A stretch of DNA of 61,859 bases from an uncultured Eubacteriales bacterium (GTDB taxonomy: Bacteria > Bacillota > Clostridia > Oscillospirales > Oscillospiraceae), in assembly GCA_949296115.1 (NCBI GenBank), contig CASFNR010000007.1, positions 1-61,859 on the forward strand, given 5' to 3'. Positions 13,619 to 53,922 of this stretch are shown one piece after another. Position 1 is the first letter of the stretch. Every line of letters starts with the position of its first letter. A program made the translations under genes and the position numbers. Under the pieces are notes generated by a model. It searched no databases, was not told where the DNA came from, and saw nothing but the letters and a program-made list of their open reading frames with translations.

Positions 13619-13701
13619 TACAACCATCCTTCCCACCGGAAACGGCTCCGGCTTACGTCAATATCCCCGATTATAGCACAAAAAACCTTGGGGGTAAAGA
13701 A

Positions 13702-13731
13702 AAACGCCCGGAATATTTCCGGGCGTTTTGG
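13702..13731. terminator. Terminator hairpin, left flank of repeat element (direct repeat with 13931-13960)
   Basis: Contains the near-palindrome CGCCCGGAATATTTCCGGGCG followed by TTTT on the plus strand. The full 30 bases are identical to 13931-13960, and the pair brackets the element 13732-13930. Confidence 0.75.
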
Positions 13732-13930: not shown

Positions 13931-13960
13931 AAACGCCCGGAATATTTCCGGGCGTTTTGG
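13931..13960 (-). terminator. srtB terminator, right flank of repeat element
   Basis: Thirty bases identical to 13702-13731. Its position, 18 bases after the srtB stop on the minus strand, makes it the natural srtB terminator. Confidence 0.75.
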
Positions 13961-13978
13961 ATGGCACAGTGTGTTTTG

Positions 13979-14785: not shown

Positions 14786-14807
14786 AAATTAAATCCCTCC
14801 TTAGCAT

Positions 14808-14836
14808 ATTATAGTGGAAGTGCCAAACCCTGTCAA
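14808..14836 (-). promoter_or_regulatory. Consensus sigma-A promoter of srtB
   Basis: On the minus strand TTGACA (14831-14836) and TATAAT (14808-14813) have a 17-base spacer, 23 bases upstream of the start codon. AAGGAGGG lies between. This is a perfect consensus, so srtB is probably constitutive. Confidence 0.85.
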
Positions 14837-14865
14837 GGCCGGCAATCTTTAAGAAATGTTTAGCC

Positions 14866-32162: not shown

Positions 32163-32171
32163 GGAACAAGC

Positions 32172-32238
32172 GGGCATATCCGGCGAAAACCGGGTATGCC
32201 CTCCCGCAGTTTTGAAGGGGCTTCCCCCAGGGGAAGCC
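32172..32238 (+). promoter_or_regulatory. Two intercistronic hairpins after the binding-protein gene
   Basis: A 12-bp stem GGGCATATCCGG/CCGGGTATGCCC (32172-32201, loop CGAAAA) and a second stem GGCTTCCC/GGGAAGCC (32219-32238) lie between binding-protein and permease genes. Such structures commonly protect the upstream message or attenuate downstream expression. Confidence 0.55.
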
Positions 32239-32252
32239 AAGGAGAGAAAACA

Positions 32253-34069: not shown

Positions 34070-34078
34070 GGAGGAACT

Positions 34079-35014
34079 ATGGAAGCAAAGCACGAAAGCC
34101 TTCTGGAAATTCACGATCTGTCCGTGTCCTTCCGGATGTACGACCACGCCCTGGAGCAGCACGATCTGCAGGTGATTTCCGACCTGCACCTGACGGTGCG
34201 GCCTGGGGAGGTGGTGGCCATTGCCGGGTCCTCCGGCTCGGGAAAGAGTCTGCTGGCCTCGGCCATTCTGGGGATTCTCCCCGGCAACGCCACGGTTCAC
34301 GGCCACCTGCACTACAAGGGCCAGCAGCTGACGCCGGAGCGGCAGGCCCAGCTCCGGGGCACGGAGATTGCCCTGGTGCCCCAGTCCATTGCCTACCTGG
34401 ACCCCCTGATGAAGGTGGGCAGGCAGGCCGACGGCCACCGGAAACCCCGGCCCACCGACAAGCGGCGGAAATTGTTTGCCCGGCTCGGCCTGCCGGAACA
34501 AACCGAAAATCTCTATCCCTTCCAGCTCTCCGGGGGCATGGCCCGGCGGGTGCTGGTGTCCACTGCCCTGATTACCGACGCCCAGCTGGTGATTGCCGAC
34601 GAGCCCACCCCGGGGATGAGCCTGGACCAGGCGCTGGAAGCGCTGAAGCTGTTCCGGATGCTGGCGGACAAGGGCAAAGGCGTGATTCTCATCACCCATG
34701 ACATTGACCTGGCCTTTGCCTTTGCCGACCGGGTGGCGGTGTTCTACGCCGGCACCACCGTGGAGACGGCTCCGGCGGCGGACTTCCGGACCGGCCCCGA
34801 AGCCCTGCGCCATCCCTACAGCCAGGCTCTGTGGCGGGCATTGCCTCAGAACGGCTTTGAGCCGGTGCCGGGTTTTCAGCCCTATGCAGGAAATCTGCCC
34901 AAGGGCTGCCTGTATGCCCCCCGGTGTCCCTACAAAACCCCGGAATGTGAGCAGGCAGTGCCCCCGGTGCGGACGGTCCGGGGCGGAGAAGTGAGGTGCT
35001 ACCATGGCGCTTGA
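34079..35014 (+). CDS. ABC transporter ATP-binding protein, DppD/NikD type
   Basis: The 311-residue ATPase has Walker A GSSGSGKS, the signature LSGGMARRVLV and Walker B LVIADEPTPG, plus a C-terminal oligopeptide-type extension (LYAPRCPYKTPECEQAVPPV) found in Opp/Dpp/Nik ATPases. The Cys residues there are typical and may bind an iron-sulfur cluster, as proposed for some DppD proteins. It overlaps the following ATPase gene by eleven bases. Confidence 0.9.
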   Translation: MEAKHESLLEIHDLSVSFRMYDHALEQHDLQVISDLHLTVRPGEVVAIAGSSGSGKSLLASAILGILPGNATVHGHLHYKGQQLTPERQAQLRGTEIALVPQSIAYLDPLMKVGRQADGHRKPRPTDKRRKLFARLGLPEQTENLYPFQLSGGMARRVLVSTALITDAQLVIADEPTPGMSLDQALEALKLFRMLADKGKGVILITHDIDLAFAFADRVAVFYAGTTVETAPAADFRTGPEALRHPYSQALWRALPQNGFEPVPGFQPYAGNLPKGCLYAPRCPYKTPECEQAVPPVRTVRGGEVRCYHGA

Positions 35015-35609
35015 AGCGAAGAATCTGTCCTTCCGGTATGCCCGGAACCTGCCCTGGGTGCTGGAAAACCGAAGCCTGCGGGTGGAGGAAGGGGAGCGGC
35101 TGGGGGTGTTCGCTCCCAGCGGCTACGGCAAAACCACCCTGGCCATGGTGCTGTCCGGGCATCTCCAGCCCACCCGGGGGGAGGTGCTCCTGGATGGAAA
35201 GCCCCTGCCCAAAACCGGTGTCTGCCCGGTGCAGCTAATCTACCAGCACCCGGAGAAGGCCATCAATCCCCGCTGGCGGCTGCGGAAGGTGCTGGAGGAG
35301 AGCGGACAGCTGGACGAAACCATGCTGGGGGCTTTCGGCATTGAGCCGGCCTGGCTGGACCGGTTTCCCCGGGAGCTGTCCGGGGGAGAGCTGCAGCGAT
35401 TCTGCGTGGCCCGGGCCCTGATGAGCGGCTGCCGCTATCTGATCTGCGACGAAATCAGCACCATGCTGGACGTGATTACCCAGGCCCAGATCTGGAATGT
35501 GGTGCTCGCCGAGGCGGAGAAGCGGAACATGGCGGTAATCGCCGTGACCCACAACCGGCACCTGGCCCAGCGAATCTGTACCCGGACGGTGGACTTGAGT
35601 CAGGAATGA
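35004..35609 (+). CDS. ABC transporter ATP-binding protein, NikE/DppF type (short)
   Basis: The 201-residue ATPase has Walker A APSGYGKTT, signature LSGGELQRFCV and Walker B YLICDEISTM. It is shorter than typical DppF (about 320) because the C-terminal extension is absent, as in several nickel-type systems. It is the last gene of the operon; the start lies inside the previous gene behind GGAG. The terminator-flanked repeat element follows 9 bases after the stop. Confidence 0.87.
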   Translation: MALEAKNLSFRYARNLPWVLENRSLRVEEGERLGVFAPSGYGKTTLAMVLSGHLQPTRGEVLLDGKPLPKTGVCPVQLIYQHPEKAINPRWRLRKVLEESGQLDETMLGAFGIEPAWLDRFPRELSGGELQRFCVARALMSGCRYLICDEISTMLDVITQAQIWNVVLAEAEKRNMAVIAVTHNRHLAQRICTRTVDLSQE

Positions 35610-39903: not shown

Positions 39904-40740
39904 ATGAAATTTGACGTTCGTTATGCCAACCACCCGGACGACTCCAAGGGGTATGACACCGCCCAGCTTCGGCGGCATTACCACATCGCCAATGTGTTTG
40001 AGCAGGACGAGATCTGCCTGACTTATTCACATCAGGACCGGATCATCGCCGGCGGCGTCATGCCCGTGGAAAAGGATCTGGTGCTGGAGAGCTGCAAGGA
40101 GCTGGCAGCCCCTTATTTTCTGGCCCGCCGGGAGCTGGGTGTTATCAACGTCGGCGGCGACGGCGTGATGGTGCTTGACGGGGTGGCTTATGACGTGAAG
40201 CACCGGGACGGCATCTATGTGGGCATGGGCACCAAGGAAGTGGTGTTCAAGTCCCTGGACAAGGCGAATCCGGCAAAGTTCTACCTGAACTCCTGCCCGG
40301 CGCACAAGACCTATCCCACCGTTCTGATTCCCATGGACAAGGCCCGCTATAATCACCTGGGCTCCCAGGAGACGGTGAACGAGCGGATCCTGCGTCAGTA
40401 CATCCACCCGGCGGTGTGCGAGAGCTGCCAGCTGAGCATGGGCATGACGGCCCTGCTGCCCGGCAACGTCTGGAACACCATGCCCAGCCACACCCACGAG
40501 CGGCGGATGGAAGTGTATTTCTACTTTGAGGTCGCCCCGGATCAGGCGGTGTTCCACATGATGGGCCAGGGGAAGGAAACCCGGCACATCGTCATGCACA
40601 ACGAGGAGGCCGTGATCTCCCCCAGCTGGTCCATCCATTCCGGCGTGGGCACCGCCAACTATACCTTTATCTGGGGTATGTGCGGCGAGAATCAGGACTT
40701 CGACGATATGGACGGCATTCCCACCAGCGAACTGCTGTAA
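39904..40740 (+). CDS. kduI: 5-dehydro-4-deoxy-D-glucuronate isomerase
   Basis: Converts the 4-deoxy-5-keto-uronate released from unsaturated galacturonides to 2,5-diketo-3-deoxygluconate. The 278-residue cupin has the zinc ligands H196, H198, E203 and H245 (PSHTHERRME, SIHSGVG), at the same positions known for the E. coli enzyme. Start ATG 39904 follows GGGAGA. Its product is the substrate of KduD (53919-54710), and its substrate comes from GH105 (52777-53922). Confidence 0.95.
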   Translation: MKFDVRYANHPDDSKGYDTAQLRRHYHIANVFEQDEICLTYSHQDRIIAGGVMPVEKDLVLESCKELAAPYFLARRELGVINVGGDGVMVLDGVAYDVKHRDGIYVGMGTKEVVFKSLDKANPAKFYLNSCPAHKTYPTVLIPMDKARYNHLGSQETVNERILRQYIHPAVCESCQLSMGMTALLPGNVWNTMPSHTHERRMEVYFYFEVAPDQAVFHMMGQGKETRHIVMHNEEAVISPSWSIHSGVGTANYTFIWGMCGENQDFDDMDGIPTSELL

Positions 40741-40767: not shown

Positions 40768-41634
40768 TCAGTCCCGGTTGATCCAGTCCACCCGTCCCGG
40801 GAGGGCGGGCCGCTCGAAGAACCGGGCGGTCTGGTCCCGGCGGGTTCCGTTCCACCGGTCGAAGCCCGCGGCGGCAATGTGGGGGCCGTATTCACAGTCC
40901 TCAAAGACCGCCAGACCATAGTCCCGCCAGGGACGGGCCAGGTACACGCTGCCGGGAGTGACCCCCGCTTCGCAGGTGAAGCGGCACTGCCGGAAGCGGA
41001 AGCCCTCTTCCTGGCGCAGCGCATGGGAGGGAGCGGCGGCATACCCCACCCCCCGGACGTCTGCCAGAGAGCGGATCTCACAGTGGTCGAACAGCGCTTC
41101 CCCGCATCCAAAGATGAAGTCAATGGTGCCCTCGATGGTGCACTGGCTGTAAATCTGGCGCATCCGGCCGCCCCGGCGCAGGGGGTCCAGCAGAAAGCCC
41201 TCATACCGGCCGATCAGGTCCGAAGGCAGGGGTCCGGCGAACAGGGTGTCCTGGGTGGAGGTAAGCCGGCACCGCTCCATGCGGAAACCGTCGGCGCACA
41301 CCGACAGGGCTACCTCTTGCCCCAATTTCTCCGGGGCGCCGGCGTCGTTGCACACCGCCAGGTCTGTCAGGGTCACGTTGTCGGCGCACACCGCCAGGGT
41401 GTAGGTGCGGAAGGTGTTGCATTCGGCGCCCAGGGCATCCCGTTTCCGGGCGTAATCCCCCCAGACGATGACCGTTGTTCCGGCGCCTGCGCCGGTGACG
41501 GTTAGACCCGGGGTGCGGATGAGCAGCTTCTGCCGGTAAACCCCCGGCGCCAGACGGATGACGGCGCCCTCCGGCGCCCGGTCGAACAGGGCCTGCAGAT
41601 TCTCTCCGGGGGAAACGGAAATTTGTGTGGACAT
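40768..41634 (-). CDS. Pectinesterase (pectin methylesterase), cytoplasmic form
   Basis: Removes methyl esters from galacturonate residues. The 288 residues form a right-handed beta-helix of CE8. Catalytic motifs are visible: Q128-D129 in STQDTLFAG, D172 in GTIDFIFGCGEALF, and YLARPWRDYG with the conserved Arg. There is no signal peptide, so it should act on imported oligomers. AGGAGG lies 9 bases before ATG 41634. It is the only catabolic gene on the minus strand here, divergent from the transporter operon, with its own promoter at 41669-41697. Confidence 0.92.
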   Translation of the reverse strand: MSTQISVSPGENLQALFDRAPEGAVIRLAPGVYRQKLLIRTPGLTVTGAGAGTTVIVWGDYARKRDALGAECNTFRTYTLAVCADNVTLTDLAVCNDAGAPEKLGQEVALSVCADGFRMERCRLTSTQDTLFAGPLPSDLIGRYEGFLLDPLRRGGRMRQIYSQCTIEGTIDFIFGCGEALFDHCEIRSLADVRGVGYAAAPSHALRQEEGFRFRQCRFTCEAGVTPGSVYLARPWRDYGLAVFEDCEYGPHIAAAGFDRWNGTRRDQTARFFERPALPGRVDWINRD

Positions 41635-41668
41635 GGATCGTAACCTCCTGCGGCAGATATTTCCAGGT

Positions 41669-41697
41669 ATCATAGCACACCGCAGGACGGTTTGCAA
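41669..41697 (-). promoter_or_regulatory. Pectinesterase promoter
   Basis: Minus-strand TTGCAA (41692-41697) and TATGAT (41669-41674) with a 17-base spacer. No comparable plus-strand promoter is visible for the transporter operon within the 90-base gap. Confidence 0.65.
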
Positions 41698-41724
41698 CCA
41701 ATCTTTCTTTTTCCAGGTGACAGT

Positions 41725-42294
41725 ATGAAACAACAGATAACCCTCGCCCAATACCGCACCGTGGACCTGCTCATTCTGACAGGGGTGCTTGCCGCGTGCC
41801 AGGCGCTGATTCACATGGCCGTCCGATTCTGGTTTCCGGAGCAGCTGTTCATTGTCTCTCCGGTGGCGGGAATGACGGCACTGGTGATGATGCGCTGGGA
41901 CTGGTACGGCGCCATTCCCGCAGTGGTGGGCGGGCTGCTGTTCACCCGGCTGGAGGGGGGAACCGCCCAGCAGTACCTGATCTACGGACTGGGAAATCTG
42001 GCAGCCCTGGGGGCCATGTTCCTGCTGAAAGCCATGGGAAAGGAAAAGACCCGCCTGGATTCCTTCCGGGCGCTGGTGTTCGCCCTGTGCACCCAGCTGC
42101 TGATGCAGCTCGGACGGGCAGGGCTGGCCCTGGCCCTGGGGTATTCCGGGGAAGCCTGCCTCGGTTTCCTGACGACGGATGCGCTGTCCATCCTGTTCAC
42201 CATGTTCCTGGTGTGGACGGCGCGCCGGGTCGATGGTCTGTTTGAAGACCAGAAACATTATCTGCTCCGGATCCAAGCGGAGCAGAAAAGATGA
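41725..42294 (+). CDS. Multi-span membrane protein at the head of the importer operon (unknown)
   Basis: The 189-residue hydrophobic protein has about five to six membrane spans (LILTGVLAACQALIHMAV, LFIVSPVAGMTALVMM, AIPAVVGGLLF, LGNLAALGAMFLLKAMG, ALVFALCTQLLMQLGRAGL, LSILFTMFLVWTARR). Size and topology resemble small transporter accessory or S-component-like proteins, but I recognise no family. The start ATG 41725 follows AGGTGA. It ends 15 bases before the first permease gene, so it is part of the importer operon. Confidence 0.6.
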   Translation: MKQQITLAQYRTVDLLILTGVLAACQALIHMAVRFWFPEQLFIVSPVAGMTALVMMRWDWYGAIPAVVGGLLFTRLEGGTAQQYLIYGLGNLAALGAMFLLKAMGKEKTRLDSFRALVFALCTQLLMQLGRAGLALALGYSGEACLGFLTTDALSILFTMFLVWTARRVDGLFEDQKHYLLRIQAEQKR

Positions 42295-42309
42295 AAGGAG
42301 AGAGTCACT

Positions 42310-43368
42310 TTGAAAAAAATGTTGGCGGCGGATTTCCTGGTCTACGATGAAGCCACCCACGCCTACCGGACAGATCCGGAGCAGCTGGTGCGCGACGACG
42401 TGGAGAAGCGTTACTGGAGCCATGTGGCCAGGACCGTCATGAAGGACTGGCGGCTGTATCTGATGCTGGTTCCCATGATCCTGGTGTTCCTGTTCTGGAG
42501 ATACTTCCCCATGTACGAGCTGCTGCGCTGCTTCAAGGTCTCGGATCAGGTCAAGCCGGTGTCGGAGCAGTTCTTCTCCGGTTTTTCCTATTTCAAGCGG
42601 CTGCTGTTCAGCGGCGACGGCCTGTCCACGGACTTCTGGCGGGCGCTGCGGAACACCTTCCTGCTGAGCTTCTACGGCCTGGTGTTCGGCTTCCCGGTGC
42701 CCATCATCATCGCCCTGTTCTTCAATGAAATCAAATCCAACATCCTGCGCAGCGTCTATCAGGTGCTGACCTATCTGCCCAAGTTCATGTCCACCGTCGT
42801 TATGACCTCCCTGGTGACCATGCTGGTCAAGCAGGGCTCCCTGACCTCCAGCATGGGCGTGCTGTCCCAGCTGCTGTGCTCTGCGGGACTGCTCAGCGAG
42901 CAGGTGGCCAACGCCGGTCTGCTGAACAACCCCTCCTTCTTCCGGGCCATCTACCAGATCAGCGGCATCTGGGAGACCGCAGGCTATGACAGCATCGTGT
43001 TCTTTGCAGCCATCATCGCCATCTCTCCCACCAGCTACGAGGCGGCCCAGATCGACGGCGCCAACAAGTGGGCCCAGATGAAGTATGTGGTGCTGCCCAG
43101 CATCCTGTCCACCGTGGTCATCATGCTCATCACCCGGATCGGCTCCCTGCTGGTCATCGGCTATGAGAAGGTGCTGCTGCTGTACAACACCAACATCTAC
43201 ATGACTGCCGACGTGGTATCCACTTTTGCCCAGCGTCACGGCCTCGGTTCGTCTTCGGCTCAGGGCCTGGCGTCGGCGGCGGAAATGATGAGCAACGTCA
43301 TCAGCATGCTGCTGGTCATCGGCGCCAACACCATTTCCCGCAAGGCGTCCAATGTATCGCTGTATTAA
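42310..43368 (+). CDS. CUT1-type ABC sugar permease, LplB-like
   Basis: The 352-residue permease has a long N-terminal cytoplasmic region (about 50 residues) and six spans. The coupling loop is YEAAQIDGANKWAQMK before a VVLPSIL segment. LplB/YteP-type permeases import complex pectic or other oligosaccharides. The start codon is TTG at 42310 with AAGGAGAG 9 bases upstream. The partner permease follows 12 bases later. Confidence 0.88.
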   Translation: MKKMLAADFLVYDEATHAYRTDPEQLVRDDVEKRYWSHVARTVMKDWRLYLMLVPMILVFLFWRYFPMYELLRCFKVSDQVKPVSEQFFSGFSYFKRLLFSGDGLSTDFWRALRNTFLLSFYGLVFGFPVPIIIALFFNEIKSNILRSVYQVLTYLPKFMSTVVMTSLVTMLVKQGSLTSSMGVLSQLLCSAGLLSEQVANAGLLNNPSFFRAIYQISGIWETAGYDSIVFFAAIIAISPTSYEAAQIDGANKWAQMKYVVLPSILSTVVIMLITRIGSLLVIGYEKVLLLYNTNIYMTADVVSTFAQRHGLGSSSAQGLASAAEMMSNVISMLLVIGANTISRKASNVSLY

Positions 43369-43380
43369 GGGGGCGAGCGT

Positions 43381-44271
43381 GTGAAGCGAAAACTAGAGAT
43401 TTCCGAAATGATCTTTAAGGTCATCAGCTACACCTGCCTGACGGTATTTGCCCTGTGCTGCCTGTATCCCTTCGTTTACGCCATCTCTGCGGCCATCAGC
43501 GGACAGCATGCGGTGGACTACAGTGAAATCATCCTGTTCCCCAAGGACCTGCAGTTCCAGGCCTTCTCCCAGATGTTCCATGACAACATGTTCTGGAACT
43601 CCTACGCCAACACCCTGTTCCTTACCTTCTACGGCACGGTGTGGTCCCTGCTGGTGGCGATTCTGGGCGCCTACGCCCTGTCCAAGAAGCGGCTGCTGTT
43701 CCGGCGGTTCTTCAACTTCTTCCTGGTGTTCACCATGTGGTTCAGCGCCGGTATTGTGCCCCAGTACCTGAACTACCTGGATACCAAGTCTGTGTTCAAC
43801 GCCATGGGCATCATGGACGACAAGTGGCTGGTGGTTATCGCCATGGGCATGGCTGCCATGAACATCATCCTGCTGCGCAACGCCTTCGAGGGCGTTCCCT
43901 CCGACATCGAGGAAGCGGCGGTGGTGGACGGCGCCACCGAATTCCAGGTGCTTTCCAAGGTCTACATCCCCATGGCCAAATCCACCATCGCCACCGTGGC
44001 CCTGTTCTTCGCCATCTCCCGCTGGAACGGCTACTTCTGGGCACGGCAGATGATTTCCAACTCCAATGAGCATCCCCTGCAGGTGTTCATCCGTCTGAAG
44101 CTGGAGCAGTACACCGACCCGGAGGCCATGGCCGGCTGGAACGAGGTGTATTCCTCCGACTCCGTGATCTATGCCTTGATCGTCTGCTCCATCATTCCCA
44201 TTCTCATCATTTACCCCTTCATCCAGAAGTATTTCGCCAAGGGCGTCAATGTGGGCGGCGTGAAGGAGTAA
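43381..44271 (+). CDS. CUT1-type ABC sugar permease, YtcP/LplC-like
   Basis: The 296-residue permease has six spans; the coupling loop is IEEAAVVDGATEFQVLSK followed by VYIPMAKSTIA. The C-terminal IPILIIYPFIQKYFAKGVNVGGVKE is the typical ending of the LplC/YtcP group. The start is GTG at 43381. Together with the previous gene it should form the heterodimeric channel of a galacturonide importer. Confidence 0.9.
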   Translation: MKRKLEISEMIFKVISYTCLTVFALCCLYPFVYAISAAISGQHAVDYSEIILFPKDLQFQAFSQMFHDNMFWNSYANTLFLTFYGTVWSLLVAILGAYALSKKRLLFRRFFNFFLVFTMWFSAGIVPQYLNYLDTKSVFNAMGIMDDKWLVVIAMGMAAMNIILLRNAFEGVPSDIEEAAVVDGATEFQVLSKVYIPMAKSTIATVALFFAISRWNGYFWARQMISNSNEHPLQVFIRLKLEQYTDPEAMAGWNEVYSSDSVIYALIVCSIIPILIIYPFIQKYFAKGVNVGGVKE

Positions 44272-44335
44272 GAAACCGGTGTGTAATCGCCCCACCGGGC
44301 GGGTTATACAATACTTACTTGAAGAGGAGATTGTT

Positions 44336-46483
44336 ATGAAAAACGTGAAACGACTGCTTTCTCTGTCCGTGGCAATCTGCATGCTGGCCGTGCTGCTGGC
44401 CGGCTGCGGCGGTATGAACGTTCCCACGGAAACCACGGCTGCTGCTGCGCAGACCGGCACCGAGGCCACGGAGGCCGTTGCCGGCGACCTGAGCTTTGCC
44501 CAGGGCACTGTCCTGCGGATGGCCACCGGCTACAACAGCACCAAGACCGGCCTGTTCTTTGATGCGGAGACCGCCGGCAACGGCGTGACCCTGGCCGACG
44601 GCGTGACCTACCAGGCCGGCGACCTGAAGCCCACCTGGGTGGAGGTTCAGAACAAGCTGGGCATGGTATTTGAGGACAAGTACCAGGGCAACAGCGCCAC
44701 CAAGGAATTCGAGTTCTGGAAAGAGCGCCTGAACGAAGTTGACATGGTCAGCGGCACCGCCGTGACCCTGACCGAGTATGGCGAAGCCGGTTCCCTGGTG
44801 AACATCGCCGAGTACCTGGATCTGATGCCCAACTTCAAGGCCTATCTGGAGGCCAACCCCGTTGTCCGGCTGTCCATCACCGGCAACACCTCCACCGGCG
44901 CCATCTACTTCTCCCCCTACTTTGACGGCGTGAACGACATCGAGCGGATGCCTCTGATGCGTGCCGACTGGGTTGTGAAGCTGCTGGACGGCGAAGGCGA
45001 GTTCACCGCCGACAAGTGCGGCAACCTGAGCCCTGCCGCTTATGAACCCTATATGCCCACCTCCGGCAAGGTGGACGTGGACGTGGTCAGCCTGGACGGC
45101 ACCGCCGTTGAGACTGTGACCAAGGACTACGATGCCGCCGGCAACATCGTCGCCACCATGAACGAGGCCCTGGCCGCCGGCACGGTGGACGGCGTTACCG
45201 CTGTCAACATGCTGCGTACCTACATCGACACCGCCTACAACGGCTACTACGGCACCACCCGTTCCAACCTGTTCGTGGGCCAGAACGCTGCCTGGGACGC
45301 TGACGAACTGGTGGCCCTGCTGCGCTGCGTGGTCAGCAATGCCCCCACCCTGAACGGCACCGACAGCATCCAGGGCATCTTCTCCCGTGAGGACAACAAC
45401 AACCAGCGCCGGGTGGATATGTTCCGCTTTGCCGGCACCCTGTTCGGCGTCCGCGGCCTGGAGTCCCGTCAGGATTACCTGTACGTCGGCTCTGACGGCA
45501 AGCTGCATGACGCCCGGATGGAAGAGGACGCCTATGTTGCCATGAAGCGGATGAACGACATGGCCAAGGAAGGCCTGATCTCCAAGTCCTTCATCGATAT
45601 GTCCGAAGAGTCCAGCGCCACCATGCTGGAGAACGACCTGGGCTTCATGAGCTATGACTACAACCAGACCCAGACCGTTTACAATGAGACCAAGCTGCAG
45701 GATGGCGAAAAGTACATGGCTGCCATGGTTCCCGTGGCCCGCTGGTACGACGGCACCGATGAGAACGGCGTCTACATGCGCTTCACCGAGTCCTGGCGTT
45801 CCGTTAAGGTGGATGGCTGGGCCATCTCCGCTGCCGGTGTGGCCGGCAACCAGGACAAGCTGAATGCCTGCCTGGCTCTGATTGATTTCGCTTACTCCGA
45901 CGAAGGCATGATCCTCATGTCCTACGGCCCCGATGCCTTCATCAAGGAAGGCGAGACCTTCAACTTCAACGGCGAAGAGATGCCGGTGATCGCGGACGCC
46001 ACCTACGAAGAACTGTGGGAGAAGGCTTCCGGCAACTACACCAACTACGCCCGTTACTACCTGGGCTCCACCCTGTCCTTCGTGAAGAACCAGGCATTTG
46101 AGTACCAGTGCACCCACGAAGTCGGCCGTGAAGGCGCCGGCTACATTTCCAACGCCATCGCCCTGGGCACCATCAAGCATCCCGAGCTGGCCATCACCGA
46201 GAACCCCTGGTACACCATCGTTCCCACTGTGCTGCCCAACACCACGGTTGAGAACGACATGATCAACAGCTACACGGATCTGCAGACCAAGTTCGGCGAC
46301 GCCAAGGGTGAGAGCAGCGCCTTCGTGAACATCATCACTTCCGGCTTTGCCGAGCAGGGCCTGGGCTCTCCCGAAGAGGCTGCCGCTACCGTGGCCAACA
46401 CCTACGGCTGCACCCAGTACCTGGCTCTGAGACAGCAGGCTTACGACCGTCTGCTGACCTACTACGAGACGCTGGTGGGCTAA
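44336..46483 (+). CDS. Large extracellular solute-binding lipoprotein (oligogalacturonide candidate)
   Basis: The 715-residue lipoprotein has a signal peptide with lipobox LLAGC (C24) and a Thr/Ala linker. It is longer than common family 1 binding proteins (~430) and the LplA/YtcQ group (~500-560), which fits a ligand larger than a disaccharide. It follows its permeases and precedes two hairpins and the small membrane proteins. Ligand inference (pectin-derived oligomers) comes from the locus. ATG 44336 is preceded by GAGGAG. Confidence 0.88.
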   Translation: MKNVKRLLSLSVAICMLAVLLAGCGGMNVPTETTAAAAQTGTEATEAVAGDLSFAQGTVLRMATGYNSTKTGLFFDAETAGNGVTLADGVTYQAGDLKPTWVEVQNKLGMVFEDKYQGNSATKEFEFWKERLNEVDMVSGTAVTLTEYGEAGSLVNIAEYLDLMPNFKAYLEANPVVRLSITGNTSTGAIYFSPYFDGVNDIERMPLMRADWVVKLLDGEGEFTADKCGNLSPAAYEPYMPTSGKVDVDVVSLDGTAVETVTKDYDAAGNIVATMNEALAAGTVDGVTAVNMLRTYIDTAYNGYYGTTRSNLFVGQNAAWDADELVALLRCVVSNAPTLNGTDSIQGIFSREDNNNQRRVDMFRFAGTLFGVRGLESRQDYLYVGSDGKLHDARMEEDAYVAMKRMNDMAKEGLISKSFIDMSEESSATMLENDLGFMSYDYNQTQTVYNETKLQDGEKYMAAMVPVARWYDGTDENGVYMRFTESWRSVKVDGWAISAAGVAGNQDKLNACLALIDFAYSDEGMILMSYGPDAFIKEGETFNFNGEEMPVIADATYEELWEKASGNYTNYARYYLGSTLSFVKNQAFEYQCTHEVGREGAGYISNAIALGTIKHPELAITENPWYTIVPTVLPNTTVENDMINSYTDLQTKFGDAKGESSAFVNIITSGFAEQGLGSPEEAAATVANTYGCTQYLALRQQAYDRLLTYYETLVG

Positions 46484-46512
46484 TCCTGCTGTGCGCTCTG
46501 CTACCTCTTGAC

Positions 46513-46593
46513 GGCTGCCCCTGGGGGCAGCGCCCAGGAAACCGTTTCCAAAAAAGTTGATTCCGTCCTCTGCCGGGGGAAACCCCGGCAGAG
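46513..46593 (+). promoter_or_regulatory. Two strong intercistronic hairpins after the binding-protein gene
   Basis: GCTGCCCC/GGGGCAGC (46513-46530) and an 11-bp stem CTCTGCCGGGG/CCCCGGCAGAG (46568-46593). They probably protect the binding-protein message or reduce expression of the downstream membrane and ATPase genes. Confidence 0.55.
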
Positions 46594-46617
46594 ACAAGGA
46601 TCAACGGGGAGGTCATT

Positions 46618-47211
46618 ATGTATAAAAAACAGTTGCGTTTCCAGAAATTTGTCTGTCTGTTCTGCATCATCGCAGCCGGTATCTCCTTTGTCTACGCCCT
46701 GGGAATCATCACGGATATTTACGACAGCCTGTATCCAACCATGATGAACCCCAATGATCCCACTGAGACCATGGTTCCCGGCTCCATCATTTACTACGAC
46801 ATGCAGAACTTCAATAAGCTCTATGTCAATGCCAGCATCGGCCTGATTCTGCTGGGCTGCCTGCTGTTCCTGACCAACACCAACAGCCGCAGAAAGTATT
46901 ACATCGGTAATTACGTCGCCACCGCCCTGTATGCGCTGGCAAGCCTGGCGCTGGTGGTGTGGTCCCATGTACAGATTTCCGCATTCAAGGTGCAGTACCT
47001 GACCACGGTGGATTTTGAAGCGCTTCAGTCCTTCTCCCAGATGTGGAATACCACCTACACCACCTCCACCTTCTGGCTGGATGTGCATTATGTTGTGGCA
47101 GTGATTTCCGTGCTGGCGGTGGCGGCGCTGGTGGTAAACTGCGTGTGGAAGATTCAGCTGATGCGAGGAGAGAATGAACTCCTTGCCGCCCGGAAGGAGG
47201 CAGTGGGATGA
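46618..47211 (+). CDS. Four-span membrane protein A of the importer locus (unknown)
   Basis: The 197-residue protein has four predicted spans (about 10-30, 68-86, 95-117 and 152-178) and an extracellular loop with the motif YPTMMNPNDPTETMVPGS between spans 1 and 2. I recognise no family. The last span region (LDVHYVVAVISVLAVAALV) resembles that of membrane protein C (LSVHMVLVIISAALVALLP), suggesting that the two are related. It overlaps the next gene by four bases. GGGAGG lies upstream. Confidence 0.65.
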   Translation: MYKKQLRFQKFVCLFCIIAAGISFVYALGIITDIYDSLYPTMMNPNDPTETMVPGSIIYYDMQNFNKLYVNASIGLILLGCLLFLTNTNSRRKYYIGNYVATALYALASLALVVWSHVQISAFKVQYLTTVDFEALQSFSQMWNTTYTTSTFWLDVHYVVAVISVLAVAALVVNCVWKIQLMRGENELLAARKEAVG

Positions 47212-47699
47212 ACCAGGAGGAACTGAGAATCAAGCGTGACCGGATGCGCTACACCAAGGACAAGTTCTCTGCGAATCTGACCCTGGTGGCCATCTTGTTT
47301 GACGCACTGTATTTCGTGAATATCTACCAGTCTGATGTGGGCACCTACTACTACAACTGGGTCATCGGCGTGTCGGTTGTATACAACCTGCTGTTCATGC
47401 TCATGGCGTTCCTTGCGTCGGAGGGCGTGAAGAACCGGGTCGGCGGCTATACCCCCCTGCTGATTTTCATTGGCCTGGTGCAGTTTGCCCGGATTTTTTA
47501 CCTGCCCACCAAGGCCCATGCCGCTTCTCTGGACGTTCAGGGCGTCTCTGTGCAGGTGATGAGCAACTCCCAGTACGGGTATCTGATCGTGTGCCTGGTG
47601 CTTTCCGGCGTGTGCTGCCTGATTGCGGCGGTCACCAGCTATATCAACAATAAGAACCTGGCGGAATATATGCGTTCCATCGAAAATCAAGCCGCATGA
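47208..47699 (+). CDS. Four-span membrane protein B of the importer locus (unknown)
   Basis: The 163-residue protein has a charged N-terminus (MNQEELRIKRDRMRYTKDKF) and four spans (about 24-44, 48-70, 82-102 and 126-148). The overlap with membrane protein A (ATGA) and the 13-base gap to the ATPase gene show it belongs to the same transcription unit. No known motif was recognised. Confidence 0.65.
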   Translation: MNQEELRIKRDRMRYTKDKFSANLTLVAILFDALYFVNIYQSDVGTYYYNWVIGVSVVYNLLFMLMAFLASEGVKNRVGGYTPLLIFIGLVQFARIFYLPTKAHAASLDVQGVSVQVMSNSQYGYLIVCLVLSGVCCLIAAVTSYINNKNLAEYMRSIENQAA

Positions 47700-47712
47700 G
47701 AGGAAGAGAGCT

Positions 47713-48798
47713 ATGGCAGAACTGCGTTTAGAGCATTTGGAGAAGATCTACGACAACAAGGTTCAGGCCGTTTTCGACTTCAATCTCGATGTAAAAGACG
47801 GTGAGCTCATCGTCCTGGTTGGCCCGTCCGGATGCGGGAAGTCCACCACGTTGAGAATGGTCGCAGGCCTGGAGGATATCACCCACGGAAAGATGCTGCT
47901 CAACGGCAAGGATGTGACGGACACCCCCGCAAAGGACCGTGACATCGCAATGGTGTTCCAGAGCTATGCGCTCTACGGACACATGACAGTGTATGAAAAT
48001 ATGGCCTTTTCCCTGACGCTGCGGAAAGAGGACCCCAATGTGATTCACAAGAAGGTTCTGGCGGCGGCGGATGTACTGGGCCTGACGGAGCAGCTGAACA
48101 AGAAGCCGGCCCAGCTGTCCGGCGGCCAGCGGCAGCGGGTGGCCATGGGCCGCTCCATCGTCCGCAATCCCCAGCTGTTCCTGTTTGACGAACCCCTGTC
48201 CAACCTGGACGCCAAACTCAGAAGCGCCACCCGGCGCGAAATCCTGCTGCTGCACAAGCGGCTCAACGCCACCATGCTCTACGTTACCCATGACCAGACC
48301 GAAGCGCTGACTCTGGCGGATCGGATTGTGTGTATGTCCATGGGCCACGTCCAGCAGATCGGCACCCCCCTGGAGCTGTACGACGCTCCTGCGAACCTGT
48401 TTGTTGCAAGCTTTATCGGCCTGCCGCCCATGAACTTCGTGGACGCCAAGGTAGAGCAGAACCGGCTTGTGGCGAAGCATTTCGCTCTGCCTTTGACGGA
48501 TGCGGAGCAGAAAACCCTGCGGCCCTACCTGGGCAAGGAAATTGTCCTGGGCTTCCGCCCGGAGAATACCAGCGTAGGCAATCACTTTGAAATGAAGGTG
48601 CTCTCCAACGAGAACCTGGGTATGAACACCCTGGTCCATGGCCACATCGGCCGGGACGGCTCCGGCGAGAGAATTACCTGTAAACTGAATGGCTGGTGCC
48701 AGTACAAAGCCGGCGACGTGGTTTCCATTTCCATCACCAAGAAGCATTTCTTCGACAAGGAAACCACCCAGGCGATTCGAATGGAGGAGGAAGCATGA
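47713..48798 (+). CDS. CUT1-type ABC ATPase 1 (UgpC/MsmK-like)
   Basis: The 361-residue ATPase has Walker A GPSGCGKST, signature LSGGQRQRVAMGR, Walker B LFLFDEPLSNLDAK and the switch VTHDQTEA. A C-terminal TOBE/MalK-type regulatory domain follows (from about 240, FRPENTS). It is very similar in size and layout to ATPase 2 at 50091. Dedicated ATPases are uncommon in Firmicutes CUT1 loci, which usually share MsmK. Start ATG 47713 follows GGAAGAGAG. It overlaps membrane protein C by four bases. Confidence 0.92.
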   Translation: MAELRLEHLEKIYDNKVQAVFDFNLDVKDGELIVLVGPSGCGKSTTLRMVAGLEDITHGKMLLNGKDVTDTPAKDRDIAMVFQSYALYGHMTVYENMAFSLTLRKEDPNVIHKKVLAAADVLGLTEQLNKKPAQLSGGQRQRVAMGRSIVRNPQLFLFDEPLSNLDAKLRSATRREILLLHKRLNATMLYVTHDQTEALTLADRIVCMSMGHVQQIGTPLELYDAPANLFVASFIGLPPMNFVDAKVEQNRLVAKHFALPLTDAEQKTLRPYLGKEIVLGFRPENTSVGNHFEMKVLSNENLGMNTLVHGHIGRDGSGERITCKLNGWCQYKAGDVVSISITKKHFFDKETTQAIRMEEEA

Positions 48799-49337
48799 GC
48801 GGTATTCGGGAGTTTTTTCGGAAGAAAGTGGTAAGCCTGAAGCGCAATCCTCAGATCATTCCTCTTCTGATGGCGCTGGTTGCCTTTCTGGTATATTCAT
48901 TTAATCTGACGTTAATGTCCAACACCACCGCCAAGATTCAGGGCACTGGAATGGGCCTGGCCCAGTTCGGGATCATGCTGCTGTCCCTGCTGTCTATGGT
49001 TTGCCTGCTCAACGCCTTCCCCCGGCGCAAGAAGGCCAATATCCCCATGGTGGTGCTGCTGTTTATCATGTTTGCCATCATCATTTACTGCGACATTCAC
49101 TATAACAACGCCATCACCGCGGCTCTGACCCGGGCGTCCAGCCCCATCAAGCTGGATGCCTCGACGGCGTACATCGCCCAGGCCTACAATATGCTGTCGG
49201 TGCACATGGTGCTGGTTATCATTTCCGCAGCTCTGGTAGCGCTGCTGCCGGTGTACAGCAAGCTGCTGAAGAAGATCAACGTCTCCGTTGAGGTGGAGGA
49301 CAACGGCTCCATGGCCGAGATCGAACTCAACGATTGA
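48795..49337 (+). CDS. Four-span membrane protein C of the importer locus (unknown)
   Basis: The 180-residue protein has four spans (about 22-42, 56-76, 84-104 and 131-153) and a short charged tail (KKINVSVEVEDNGSMAEIELND). Its start overlaps the ATPase 1 stop (ATGA) behind GGAGGAGG, indicating tight translational coupling to the ATPase. Span 4 resembles that of protein A. No family was recognised. Confidence 0.65.
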   Translation: MSGIREFFRKKVVSLKRNPQIIPLLMALVAFLVYSFNLTLMSNTTAKIQGTGMGLAQFGIMLLSLLSMVCLLNAFPRRKKANIPMVVLLFIMFAIIIYCDIHYNNAITAALTRASSPIKLDASTAYIAQAYNMLSVHMVLVIISAALVALLPVYSKLLKKINVSVEVEDNGSMAEIELND

Positions 49338-49386
49338 GTGCGTCGATTCCCGCTACCCAATTTTCCCGTAAGGACAGGCACAAAGC

Positions 49387-50010
49387 ATGGATAACGAAAA
49401 CAAAGAAAAGATTGCTCGGCGGCAGAAGAATTACTCGCTGAAGAAGGAAGCCATTGAGACCCTGGCCGGGGCAGATTCCCAGGAGCCGGAACAGTTTTCC
49501 CAGGAGGAGCTGGACCGGTACCGGTCAAAGAAAGGACTTCCCATTCCCGATGACATCAAGATCCTGCTGATCAAGGTATGGTTCCCCGGGGCGGTATGCT
49601 TTTTCATCCTGTGGGGACTGGGCCTGTATATCGGCAGCATGCTGGACATGCTGTTTGTACTGGGCGTGGTGCTGGGGATGGTAACGGATCTGCTGACCAA
49701 CAATGTCCTGCGCTTTATTGAAAAGCAGGCGGGAGACAACCGAAGATGGATCATGGTCAACGTCAAGGGCGTGCTGGGTTCAATCCTCAACGTGCTCTAT
49801 GCCATGGTCATCGTGGTGTGCGTCTATCTTCTTTATAACCTGATCAATTACGGGATTTCTCTGGTGACGGGGACGGTAGATGTGGTTGCCCTGGGAGTGG
49901 AACCCATATTGTTCGGAGTGTTCTGCACGGTGTTCGACCTGCTGTTTCTGTATATCAAGAGCCTGCTGATGCGGCTGAGACCCAGCCGGAGCAAAGGCGG
50001 GAAGAAGTGA
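49387..50010 (+). CDS. Membrane protein D of the importer locus (unknown)
   Basis: The 207-residue protein has a charged N-terminal ~55 residues (ENKEKIARRQKNYSLKKEAIETLAG..., likely helical and cytoplasmic) followed by about four spans (60-80, 84-105, 128-150 and 165-190) and a basic tail (RLRPSRSKGGKK). It lies 49 bases after protein C and 80 bases before ATPase 2. No family was recognised; a soluble N-terminus near the ATPases could be a contact surface (inference). Confidence 0.62.
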   Translation: MDNENKEKIARRQKNYSLKKEAIETLAGADSQEPEQFSQEELDRYRSKKGLPIPDDIKILLIKVWFPGAVCFFILWGLGLYIGSMLDMLFVLGVVLGMVTDLLTNNVLRFIEKQAGDNRRWIMVNVKGVLGSILNVLYAMVIVVCVYLLYNLINYGISLVTGTVDVVALGVEPILFGVFCTVFDLLFLYIKSLLMRLRPSRSKGGKK

Positions 50011-50090
50011 GCGGGGCGTCATTCGCCCCGGCTGCGGAGAATCAGAACCCCGGACAGAGAGAATCTACTTGAGTGAAAGGAGTGTCGGAA

Positions 50091-51176
50091 ATGGCTTACC
50101 TGACTTTGAAAGGAATCAATAAAATTTATCCCAACGGGTTTCATGCGGTTCACGACTTTAACCTGGAGATTGAAAAGGGAGAATTTATCGTATTTGTAGG
50201 ATCTTCCGGCTGCGGCAAATCCACCACCCTGCGGATGATCGCAGGCCTGGAGGACATCAGCAGCGGCGAGTTCCTGATTAACGGCGAGTACGCCAATGAC
50301 AAGGGCCCCCGGGAGCGGCAGGTGGCGATGGTGTTCCAGAGCTACGCCCTGTACCCCCAGATGTCCGTTTATGACAACCTGGCCTTCGGCCTGACCCTGC
50401 AGGGCGTGGACGAGGATGTCATTGACCAGAAGGTGCAGAAGGTTGCCAAAATTCTGGGCCTGACAGAGTACCTGGACCGGATGCCCCGGGCGCTGTCCGG
50501 CGGCCAGCGCCAGCGTGTGGCGGTGGGCCGGGCCATCATCCGCAAGGTGGGCATCTTCCTGATGGACGAGCCCCTGTCCAACCTGGACGCCAAGCAGCGG
50601 GTGACCATGCGGGCGGAGATTGCCCAGATTCACCGGGAAACCGGCGCTACCACCATCTATGTTACCCACGATCAGGTGGAGGCCATGACCCTGGCCGACC
50701 GGATTGTCATCATGAAGCAGGGCTACATTCAGCAGGTGGGCACCCCCTATGAGCTGTACTTCCGTCCGTCCAACCTGTTTGTGGCGGGCTTCATCGGCGA
50801 GCCGCCCATGAACTTTGTCCGGGGCACGGTGAAAAACGGCTGCCTGACCATCGGCGGACGGGATTTCGACGTCCGGCAGAAGCTGGGCGCCCGGGCGGCG
50901 GACTATGAGGGGAAGGACCTGTACTTCGGATTCCGCCCCGAGGCCATTGTGCTGGGCACCCGGGAGAACGCCCTGCCGGTGGATGTCACCGTGGAGCTGA
51001 CGGAAATGCTGGGTGACAACACCAACCTGTATGTCAACATCGGGGAAACCAACGCCATCCTGAAGGTCAGCCCCTATGATGCCCCTCAGATGGACGAGGA
51101 CATTACCTTCTCCATTCCCTATGAGAATATCTATCTGTTTGACGCAGAAACCGAAGAAGCCATTTATGTGGATTGA
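50091..51176 (+). CDS. CUT1-type ABC ATPase 2 (UgpC/MsmK-like)
   Basis: The 361-residue ATPase has Walker A GSSGCGKST, signature LSGGQRQRVAVGR, Walker B IFLMDEPLSNLDAK, switch VTHDQVEA and a C-terminal TOBE/MalK domain (FRPEAIVLG). It is the same length as ATPase 1 and clearly homologous but diverged, so the two could pair as a heterodimer or serve different permeases. Start ATG 50091 follows AAAGGAGTG. The GH28 gene starts 62 bases later. Confidence 0.93.
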   Translation: MAYLTLKGINKIYPNGFHAVHDFNLEIEKGEFIVFVGSSGCGKSTTLRMIAGLEDISSGEFLINGEYANDKGPRERQVAMVFQSYALYPQMSVYDNLAFGLTLQGVDEDVIDQKVQKVAKILGLTEYLDRMPRALSGGQRQRVAVGRAIIRKVGIFLMDEPLSNLDAKQRVTMRAEIAQIHRETGATTIYVTHDQVEAMTLADRIVIMKQGYIQQVGTPYELYFRPSNLFVAGFIGEPPMNFVRGTVKNGCLTIGGRDFDVRQKLGARAADYEGKDLYFGFRPEAIVLGTRENALPVDVTVELTEMLGDNTNLYVNIGETNAILKVSPYDAPQMDEDITFSIPYENIYLFDAETEEAIYVD

Positions 51177-51238
51177 GAAGTTGGCCGGGGGCCGTCCCCC
51201 GGCCGGTTTCGGATATCTTGCCTGGAGAGAAAAAGGTT

Positions 51239-52780
51239 ATGAAATTTCAAATTCTCTATGTTTCCTCCGTTTCCGCCTGCTTTGAGCTGGAAAACGACAG
51301 CCCCTACTATGCCCCCCAGTCCTTTGACGTGACCCTCAACGGCCAGACTGTCCTGGAGGGGGTGCAGACCAATGTGTTTTCCCTGTTCGACCTGACGCCG
51401 TCCACGGCCTATACTGTGGCGGTGGGGCAGGACAGCCTGTGCTTCTCCACCCGGGAAGAGTCCGGCTGCCTGAGCGTAAGCAGTTTCGGCGCCCGGGGAG
51501 ACGGCGTCTGTGACGACACCGCCCCCATTCAGTGCGCCATTGATGCCTGCCCCGCCGGGGGCAGAGTCACCGTGCCTGCGGGCACCTATTTTGTCCGGCC
51601 CCTGGTGCTCAAGTCCCACATCACACTGGAACTGAAGGCCGGGGCCGTCTTGCTGGCAGACCCCTGTGAGGAGCACTATCCCATTCTCCCCGGCGAGGCG
51701 GAGGACGCCTGCACCGGTGAGAAGATTCAGATCAGCTCCTGGGAAGGCGCCCCCTTCCCATGCCGGCAGAGTTTCCTCAGCGCCCACCATGCCCGGGACA
51801 TCCGGATTGTGGGCCGGGGCGTGATCGACGGCAATGCCCTGCAGGGCACCTGGTGGGTGGATGTGAAGAAGCGGAAAATCGGCCGCCCCAAGCTGGTGTT
51901 CCTGAACCACTGCGAGGACGTCCAGTTCCATGGCATTCTGGGCCGGAATTCCGCCTGCTGGAACTTCCATCCCTTCTTCAGCCGGAACATCGGCTTCTAT
52001 GACACCGCCGTGGAGGCGCCCAAGGACAGCCCCAACACCGACGGCACCGACCCGGAGTCCTGCGACGATGTGCGCTACATCGGCATGCGCTTCAGCGTGG
52101 GTGACGACGCCATCGCCATCAAGTCCGGCAAGATGTACATGGGAATGAAGTACCAGACTCCCGCCAGCAACCATCTGGTGCGCAACTGCCTGATGGAGTA
52201 TGCCCATGGGGCCATGGTGCTGGGCAGCGAAATGTCCGGCGGCATCCGGGAGCTGACGGTGTCCCAGTGCTATTTCCGGCACACGGACCGGGGGCTGCGG
52301 ATCAAGACCCGCCGGGGTCGGGGCAAGTACGCCGTCATCGACGGGGTAGAGTTCTCCAATATCCGCATGGACAACGTCATGGCGCCCCTGGTAATGAATA
52401 TGTACTATTTCTGCGACCCGGACGGCCATGAGGAGATTGTCTGGAGCAAGGAGCCCCATCCGGTGGACGACACCACCCCCTACCTGGGGTCCTTCCACTT
52501 CCGGGATATGGACTGCACCGACTGCGAATGGGCGGCGGGCTACTTCTACGGCCTGACGGAGCAGCCCATCGGCAGCATTACCATTGAGAACGTGAATTTT
52601 ACCTTCAAACCGGACGCCAGTTCCGGCCATCCGGCCATGATGGACTTTATTGACAAGGAGTGCAAGCGGGGCCTGTACTTCAACCGGGTCCGGAAGGTGA
52701 CGCTGAAGAATGTCACCCTTACCGGCCAGGAAGGGGACCGGCTGATTACCGAGCATGTGGACGAGGTGGTGGAGCTTTGA
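51239..52780 (+). CDS. GH28 polygalacturonase, cytoplasmic
   Basis: The 513-residue enzyme has an N-terminal fibronectin-like beta domain (1-75) and a GH28 right-handed beta-helix. Signature residues: N266-T-D-G, D289/D290 in VGDDAIAIKSG, HGAMVLGSEMSGG in place of the usual GHG block, and RIKTRRGRG (the RIK motif). No signal peptide is visible. GH28 members of this form (exo-poly-alpha-galacturonosidase, PehX-like) release mono- or digalacturonate from oligomer ends. Start ATG 51239 follows GAGAGAAAAAGG. Its stop overlaps the GH105 start. Confidence 0.92.
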   Translation: MKFQILYVSSVSACFELENDSPYYAPQSFDVTLNGQTVLEGVQTNVFSLFDLTPSTAYTVAVGQDSLCFSTREESGCLSVSSFGARGDGVCDDTAPIQCAIDACPAGGRVTVPAGTYFVRPLVLKSHITLELKAGAVLLADPCEEHYPILPGEAEDACTGEKIQISSWEGAPFPCRQSFLSAHHARDIRIVGRGVIDGNALQGTWWVDVKKRKIGRPKLVFLNHCEDVQFHGILGRNSACWNFHPFFSRNIGFYDTAVEAPKDSPNTDGTDPESCDDVRYIGMRFSVGDDAIAIKSGKMYMGMKYQTPASNHLVRNCLMEYAHGAMVLGSEMSGGIRELTVSQCYFRHTDRGLRIKTRRGRGKYAVIDGVEFSNIRMDNVMAPLVMNMYYFCDPDGHEEIVWSKEPHPVDDTTPYLGSFHFRDMDCTDCEWAAGYFYGLTEQPIGSITIENVNFTFKPDASSGHPAMMDFIDKECKRGLYFNRVRKVTLKNVTLTGQEGDRLITEHVDEVVEL

Positions 52781-53922
52781 ATCAGATTGAACGCTATGTG
52801 GAGCGGATTCTGGCGGAGTCTGCCCCGGATAAGCCCCTGTGGAACATCGAAAAACTGAAGCAGGGAAAGATCAACGGCTGGAACTACATCGACGGCTGCA
52901 TGATGATCGCCCTGCTGAACCTGTACCGGATCACCGGCCAGGAGCGCTATTACACCTTCGCCGAGCATTTCCTGGACTACTATGTCTTTGACGACGGCAG
53001 CATCCGGGGCTTCCAGGAGGAGGACTATAACCTGGACAACATCTGCGAGGGCCGGGTGCTGTTCGATGTGTACGCCCTCAGCGGCAAGGAAAAATACCGC
53101 AAAGCCATGGAGACCATCCATGGTCAGCTGCTGCGCCAGCCCCGGACTGCCGAGGGAAATTTCTGGCACAAGGCCATCTATCCCAACCAGGTCTGGCTGG
53201 ACGGCCTGTATATGGCCCAGGTGTTCTACACCCGCTATACCACCCAGTTTGAAAACGGGAAGGCCTACGAGGACATCCGCCGCCAGTTCCGCACCGTCCG
53301 GGAGAAGATGTACGACCCGGAGACCGGACTGTACCGCCATGGCTATGACGCCAGCGGGGCTGCCTTCTGGGCGGAGCCGGACGGCCGGTCCCGGAATCCC
53401 TGGCTGCGGAGCCTGGGCTGGTTCAGCGCCGCCCTGATTGACGTCAGTGCGGAAATTGCCTCGGAGGCGGCGGATTTCCGCCGGGAGATGGGGGACATCG
53501 CCCGGGAGCTGGCAAAGAACCTGCTGCCTTACATTGACCCGGACAGCGGCATGCTCTGGCAGGTGCCCAATCAGGTTGGGCGGGAAGGGAATTATCCCGA
53601 AACCTCCGGCTCCGCCATGGTGGCCTACTTCTACCTGAAGGGCGCCCGGCTGGGGATTCTGGACCCGGCCTACGCCGATACCGGCGCGTCCATTTTCCAG
53701 AGCATCTGCAACCGGTATCTGAAGGAAACCGACGGCAAGCTGAACCTGGGGGGCATCTGCCTGGTGGCAGGGCTTGGCCCGGAGAACAACCGCCGCCGGG
53801 ACGGCAGCTACGAATATTACATTTCCGAACCGGTGGTGGAGAATGACGCCAAGGGACTGGCGCCGTTCCTCATGTGCTACACCGAATTGCTGCAATCGAA
53901 TAAGGAGGTTACATTGAAATGA
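52777..53922 (+). CDS. GH105 unsaturated galacturonyl/rhamnogalacturonyl hydrolase
   Basis: The 381-residue (alpha/alpha)6-barrel enzyme removes the unsaturated uronate left by lyases. Recognisable blocks: WNYIDGCMMIAL, YNLDNICEGRVLFDVY with the catalytic-type Asp, WHKAIYPNQVWLDGLYMAQV, and RSRNPWLRSLGWF. Start TTG at 52777 overlaps the GH28 stop by four bases, with GGTGGAG just upstream; the length then matches YteR/YesR-type enzymes. There is no signal peptide. It feeds KduI. It overlaps kduD by four bases. Confidence 0.92.
   Translation: MNQIERYVERILAESAPDKPLWNIEKLKQGKINGWNYIDGCMMIALLNLYRITGQERYYTFAEHFLDYYVFDDGSIRGFQEEDYNLDNICEGRVLFDVYALSGKEKYRKAMETIHGQLLRQPRTAEGNFWHKAIYPNQVWLDGLYMAQVFYTRYTTQFENGKAYEDIRRQFRTVREKMYDPETGLYRHGYDASGAAFWAEPDGRSRNPWLRSLGWFSAALIDVSAEIASEAADFRREMGDIARELAKNLLPYIDPDSGMLWQVPNQVGREGNYPETSGSAMVAYFYLKGARLGILDPAYADTGASIFQSICNRYLKETDGKLNLGGICLVAGLGPENNRRRDGSYEYYISEPVVENDAKGLAPFLMCYTELLQSNKEVTLK

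Follow-up and report, generated by a model that had tools for sequence, protein, structure and literature searches.

A pectin-locus CUT1 importer module with two dedicated ATPases and five additional membrane proteins in conserved gene order

CUT1 importers are a standard route by which oligosaccharides enter Gram-positive gut bacteria, and their usual parts list comprises a pore, a binding protein and one, often shared, ATPase, with no extra membrane proteins of the kind reported here. We describe a module of ten same-direction genes (41725-51176, + strand) in a stretch of 61,859 nt (the window) of contig CASFNR010000007.1 (GCA_949296115.1), from an uncultured Eubacteriales bacterium of the Oscillospiraceae. 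It encodes a CUT1-type core, two ATPases (ATP1 and ATP2) and five further membrane proteins (M0, A, B, C and D). We propose, at a probability of about 0.6, a polyuronate importer in which A-D and M0 serve as dedicated subunits and which has two dedicated ATPases of its own, possibly paired as a heterodimer. That these five proteins act with the importer is very likely, and that they are physically part of it is favoured with less confidence. Support is provided by gene content, gene order, co-occurrence, the ATPase motifs, the kinship of the core and the predicted folds of D and M0; the physical assembly and its stoichiometry, the subunit contacts, the substrate and the heterodimer are what we infer.

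Conservation of the module was assessed with a profile of D, which was searched against a collection of 84,980 species genomes. The search matched 422 stretches, 318 of which encode a relative, and the best 80 loci were kept. Gene order was judged in the 58 loci with more than 8.3 kb of sequence 5' of D, and in all 58 we observed M0, permease 1, permease 2, binding protein, A, B, ATP1, C and D in the same order and on one strand. Some of these loci are close kin, so they do not represent 58 independent cases; L039 and G476 were taken as the same contig, as were L097 and G080. The carriers are labelled Oscillospiraceae, Lachnospiraceae, Erysipelotrichaceae/Solobacterium, Butyricicoccus, Christensenellaceae and others, and they include gut and rumen bacteria. 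An initial annotation of this DNA had suggested neighbourhood conservation as a check on its proposal; the nine-gene order holds across bacterial families, and the ten-gene order that it described in the window was borne out in every reading frame. The gene arrangement reflects real biology and not chance. ATP2 is linked to the module in 76 of 80 loci, and the remaining four end within 3.5 kb 3' of D. It lies less than 300 bases after D in 16 loci, farther downstream in 58 and upstream in 2. The constant block is thus A-B-ATP1-C-D, with ATP2 as the movable part. A complete module was also seen in L066, on a contig of a rumen bin labelled Spirochaetia, through either horizontal transfer or mis-binning.

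The kinship of the core was examined at the level of its permeases and binding protein. Permease 1 (42310-43368, 352 aa; start TTG at 42310 or ATG at 42319) and permease 2 (43381-44271, 296 aa) both carry PF00528 (BPD_transp_1), and their nearest solved relatives are AlgM1 (E 1.5e-60) and AlgM2 (E 1.3e-81), respectively, of the Sphingomonas alginate importer. The binding protein (44336-46483, 715 aa) matched no Pfam family. Its profile aligned over part of its length with AlgQ1 (E 1e-9) and AlgQ2 (E 8.9e-9), and its N-terminus, read from the sequence, is lipoprotein-like (LAGCGG). Because the permeases match AlgM1/AlgM2 and the binding protein AlgQ1/AlgQ2, the core is by its sequence a CUT1/type I importer related to a polyuronate importer. 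Among the 61 loci with more than 5.5 kb 3' of D, a GH28 gene lies downstream in 49 and a GH105 gene in 54, and this gene context would make pectin the natural substrate. The initial annotation had placed a CUT1 importer in a pectin locus, a view that these results support; it had missed the AlgM/AlgQ-like core and the fold of M0 described below. Searches for a second CUT1 permease pair were negative both for the window (E ≤ 1e-2) and for the 80 loci (E ≤ 1e-3, up to 10 kb on each side of D), which suggests that the two ATPases serve one permease pair.

ATP1 (47713-48798) and ATP2 (50091-51176) are each 361 residues long, as initially annotated, and homologous, with 48% identity. Both are of the MalK/UgpC type, with PF00005, PF17912 and a UgpC model above its cut-off, and ECF (energy-coupling factor) ATPase models match ATP2 only below cut-offs. 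All tested motifs are intact in 84 of 84 ATP1 and 76 of 76 ATP2 sequences. A tree of 59 rows was built from the window pair, the copies available from 23 chosen loci and 13 further rows (eight ATP1/ATP2 copies and five other MsmK-like ATPases from four genomes, the other ATPases of the window's own genome being left out). In this tree the ATP1 and ATP2 sequences each fall into a starred clade of their own (100/100 and 100/99), the five MsmK-like ATPases fall outside both, and long branches are flagged between the clades. Four genome pairs recur in both clades (L009/L093, L010/L107, L011/L012 and L044/L048), as if both ATPases were bound to one system, and 39 of 382 columns are at least 93% fixed per clade to different letters, one of them being a gap in ATP2. 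At E ≤ 1e-130, ATP2 orthologs were found in 10 of 394 genomes of the order, all ten of which bear D (shown by an earlier search whose sample agrees in size and genome labels). The eleventh D-bearing genome, G261, has an ATP2 copy at E 1.7e-123 that is 61% identical over its length, and an ortholog is thus present in all 11. ATP2 was found at 66% identity or more in 12 of 12 genomes searched, and the same genomes encode further UgpC/MsmK-like ATPases, ATP1 included, with 44-59% identity to ATP2. These results support the view, already taken in the initial annotation, that ATP1 and ATP2 are dedicated, locus-bound ATPases, and the tree and the co-occurrence with D led us to reject ATP2 as the genome's shared MsmK. 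A candidate for such a shared ATPase was noted in genome G077, where an MsmK-like ATPase is encoded on contig C4 at 85913-87004 (L173:11913-13007), with no AlgM-type permease matches in the surrounding 19 kb.

One permease pair with two ATPases fits a heterodimer, and we advance an ATP1:ATP2 pairing tentatively, at somewhat less than even odds. Heteromeric ATPases, perhaps anchored or gated by the A-D proteins, had been suggested in the initial annotation and are a conjecture at this stage. Separate homodimers are also a possible arrangement, to be held with similar reserve: ATP1 would be built into the importer, and ATP2 would power the same or another importer of the pectin regulon under other conditions, with A-D still acting as subunits. 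The catalytic motifs are complete in both ATPases, as such an arrangement would have it, and other genes often put 1-5 kb between D and ATP2, in some genomes up to ~10 kb, with ATP2 then beside KduI and UxaB. In addition, excerpts of a study of Bacillus subtilis indicate that MsmX can be complemented by a second ATPase, YurJ, if the latter is moved to another locus (PMC5730181). Weighing against separate homodimers are the single permease pair detected in the window and the 80 loci, the restriction of ATP2 orthologs (E ≤ 1e-130) to D-bearing genomes in the 394-genome sample, and the four genome pairs shared by the two clades.

The four membrane proteins A (46618-47211, 197 aa), B (47208-47699, 163 aa), C (48795-49337, 180 aa) and D (49387-50010, 207 aa) were compared by alignment of 47, 55, 55 and 62 sequences, respectively. 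These alignments identify real, conserved proteins. The coordinates confirm the four-base overlaps reported initially, between A (end 47211) and B (start 47208) and between ATP1 (end 48798) and C (start 48795). Searches of Pfam, NCBIfam and PDB found no family for A-D, which are four families without a recognised relative, as had been supposed. Spans assigned by hydropathy number four in each of A, B and C, and the charges place both ends inside. The outer loops of A are acidic and have mean conservation of 0.74 and 0.69, compared with 0.56-0.70 for its spans; the first outer loops of B and C are conserved at 0.81 and 0.79, on par with the spans or above. The structure predicted for D (predicted local distance difference test, pLDDT, 88, lower at the N-terminus) has an N-terminal helix and four spans, with ~55 largely helical N-terminal residues that are probably cytosolic. 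A link between this helix and the presence of ATP2 was considered and dropped, since two remote D proteins lack the helix and one of them (in G261) comes from a genome with an ATP2 ortholog. At L012:10405-11355, the open frame of C extends to 316 aa with about three extra N-terminal spans, a possible fusion or annotation artefact.

Small membrane proteins of the DUF624/YesL type adjoin pectin importers in Bacillus, and a small membrane protein beside a pectin importer is thus common to both settings. No match to DUF624, which we take to be PF04854, appeared among the families listed for C, D or M0, nor among the 25 of 29 families listed for A and the 25 of 32 listed for B. The initial annotation had proposed that an A-B/ATPase block and a C-D/ATPase block arose by duplication, on the strength of a VH-x-V-x-x-x-I-S span shared by A and C. 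Of 47 A and 55 C proteins, one each has this motif, both being the window's own copies, and comparison of the A and C profiles gave no similarity. The six pairwise profile comparisons among A, B, C and D yielded no confident similarity, although remote kinship is possible, given that the alignments are shallow in effective number. The strongest pair, A and D, reached E 0.007 over 13 columns at a probability of 5%, in a short LG..TD stretch only, and E 0.01 over 33 columns with broader alignments. Since none of these pairs is confidently similar and the motif is private to the window, we reject the duplication.

A-D could instead be required for assembling or stabilising the importer without forming part of the working machine. 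They are small four-span proteins with no recognised catalytic domains and are strictly linked to the importer genes, as helper proteins might be. However, A shows as much conservation in its outer loops as in its spans, a set of four dedicated chaperones with no kinship to one another would be out of the ordinary, and the related alginate importer is listed, in the excerpts consulted, as AlgM1M2SS-Q2 without further parts (PMC8386196). We therefore regard this explanation as quite improbable.

M0 (41725-42294, 189 aa), the product of the first gene of the module, is predicted with high confidence to fold like the S component of an ECF vitamin transporter. Its predicted structure has the six-helix S-component fold, and it has no sequence-level family match above cut-off. 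S components carry an AxxxA motif in the first span; in the M0 alignment, A occupies column 19 in 37 of 49 sequences and column 23 in 26 of 49. By its predicted fold M0 resembles ThiT, PanT, RibU, FolT and BioY, but its partner here is a CUT1 importer, and none of the ten module proteins matched an ECF T, A or A' component above cut-off. A shared ECF module encoded at a distance serves many S components, and M0 could use one as well. An alternative is a second membrane complex, built from A-D and M0 apart from the importer and also concerned with the use of pectin: it might be a sensor, hold enzymes at the cell surface or, as an ECF-like transporter with a shared ECF module, carry another compound. 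Besides the fold of M0, it is favoured by four EcfT/CbiQ-family genes in the window's own genome, outside the module, by a sub-threshold EcfT/CbiQ-family match in 1 of 55 B proteins (E 0.0046), and by the dissimilarity of A-D to any known permease subunit. However, A-B-ATP1-C-D stays with the importer in all 58 loci, with the A/B and ATP1/C overlaps in the window, and the two ATPases are of the MalK/UgpC type. Moreover, a system in G077 (described below) has A', B' and D' around an importer ATPase without an M0 match. A separate complex is therefore improbable in our view.

Remote relatives and variant loci were also compared. G699, which belongs to a different family of the class, has the same nine genes in the same order, and identity is 28-32% for M0 and A-D, 68% for ATP1 and 55-57% for the permeases; GH28 and GH88/105 genes then follow, and ATP2 lies beyond M0, between KduI and UxaB. 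G077 has, besides the pectin module, a second system (L014, contig C4, locus 4809-15869) in the order permease 1, permease 2, binding protein, A', B', ATPase, C' and D', with one local ATPase. Profile models match A' (E 1.7e-5), B' (E 6.3e-4) and D' (E 2.2e-13), and no M0 match was obtained at this locus. Genes for DUF4962 and for heparinase II/III or alginate-lyase-like proteins adjoin this second system, and from them we would assign it a different polyuronate as target. In G261, contig C91 (L031) departs from the usual order after D: behind ATP1-C-D comes GH28 and, next to it, a distant relative of the binding protein.

Taken together, the proposed import pathway would begin with extracellular pectinases that release oligogalacturonides, which the AlgQ-like lipoprotein would capture outside the cell. 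Permeases 1 and 2 would form the pore, as AlgM1 and AlgM2 do, through which the oligomers pass inward. ATP1 and ATP2 would power this one permease pair, either joined in a heterodimer or each as an alternative homodimer. Topology and gene position alone lead us to place A-C at the outer face, where, with outer loops (both in A, the first in B and C) no less conserved than their spans, they probably help to bring the large binding protein, or the charged polymer that it carries, to the pore. On the same grounds D is placed at the ATPases, with which its long N-terminal helix probably makes contact, and M0 may use the S-component fold as a membrane-embedded accessory or binder. The imported oligomers would then be degraded by GH28 and GH105/88 enzymes and enter the KduI/Uxa pathway. 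The fullest form of this proposal, a ten-protein machine with an AlgM1M2-type pore, an obligate ATP1:ATP2 heterodimer, four new membrane families and an S-component-fold subunit, is unlikely to hold in every part.

Several observations weigh against the proposal that A-D and M0 are subunits of a two-ATPase importer. The 80 loci were picked by similarity of D, which biases the sample to its close relatives, and the module is rare and sporadic in distribution. D is present in 6 of 150 genomes of the family and 11 of 394 of the order, the window's own genome counted, and a broad D profile matched 1 of 348 genomes of the phylum, the own genome alone. C is present in 5 of 391 genomes of the class, one of which (G693, E 4.7e-4) was judged a chance match with no adjoining AlgM-type permeases (limit E 0.01); a D'-like match in G132 (E 2.6e-4) was set aside on the same grounds. 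D had no match in the plasmid collection. The second system of G077, with one local ATPase and no M0 match, indicates that ATP2 and M0 are not universal for systems of the A-D type, and its C' had no profile-model match and was assigned from position and length alone. In G213 and G261, D and ATP2 lie on separate short contigs, so their linkage cannot be judged. The distance of up to ~10 kb between ATP2 and D argues against strict co-translation with ATP1. The second outer loops of B and C are poorly conserved (0.55 and 0.57), and the predicted fold of D has no clear match in PDB, which makes its placement guesswork. Finally, operon conservation does not prove a complex, and an assembly factor or a parallel membrane device is conceivable.

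The genes surrounding the module are consistent with pectin use. Directly downstream of ATP2 are a GH28 polygalacturonase-type enzyme (51173-52780, + strand; homologs in related loci point to an ATG near 51239, and two relatives' copies carry PF00295) and a GH105/GH88-type unsaturated uronyl hydrolase (52780-53922, + strand, start approximate; named from homologs in related loci, one with PF07470). These are followed by what we take, from their sequences, to be a short-chain dehydrogenase and UxaB, and then come UxaA and UxaC, with a MatE transporter between them. On the 5' side are a GDSL-family esterase, an AraC regulator, the uronate-catabolism protein KduI (39907-40740, + strand; PF04962) and an opposite-strand pectinesterase (40768-41701, - strand; PF01095). 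Farther 5' of the pectin locus, at 30555-35609, the window encodes an oligopeptide-type importer with a family 5 binding protein, two permeases and two ATPases. A small cellulosome-like gene set was also seen on this contig, with proteins encoded at 2341-3324, 7571-10354 and 10424-11110, two of them with cohesin domains and the third with a dockerin and a Listeria-Bacteroides repeat.

The module was compared with known systems in excerpts of five papers (PMC7658222, PMC6344614, PMC12710961, PMC8386196 and PMC5730181). Relative to AlgM1M2SS-AlgQ1/Q2 of Sphingomonas sp. A1, the permeases are related and the binding protein more weakly so, and both systems handle polyuronates, here by gene context. 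The alginate importer AlgM1M2SS-Q2 is presented, in the part of the source consulted, with one ATPase used twice and no further membrane proteins (PMC8386196), whereas the present module has two dedicated ATPases, five extra membrane proteins and a binding protein of ~715 aa. The MsmX-powered pectin importers of Bacillus subtilis are, according to excerpts, ABC (ATP-binding cassette) type I importers with a multipurpose ATPase (PMC5730181); both are type I systems for pectin oligomers (again by context here), but here the ATPases form locus-bound clades, separate from the five other MsmK-like ATPases of the tree. Searches of open-access full texts listed no paper whose title or abstract opening announces the composition of the module, subscription papers being outside this scope.

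The module extends a parts list deemed settled by a further dedicated ATPase and five invariant membrane proteins. Sugar importers as multi-subunit assemblies with heteromeric motors, and the means by which large charged pectin fragments cross the membrane, are now testable, and four protein families (A-D) without prior functional context gain one. If the ten-protein machine is real, components of type I and of type III ABC importers would be combined in one complex that moves charged polymers.

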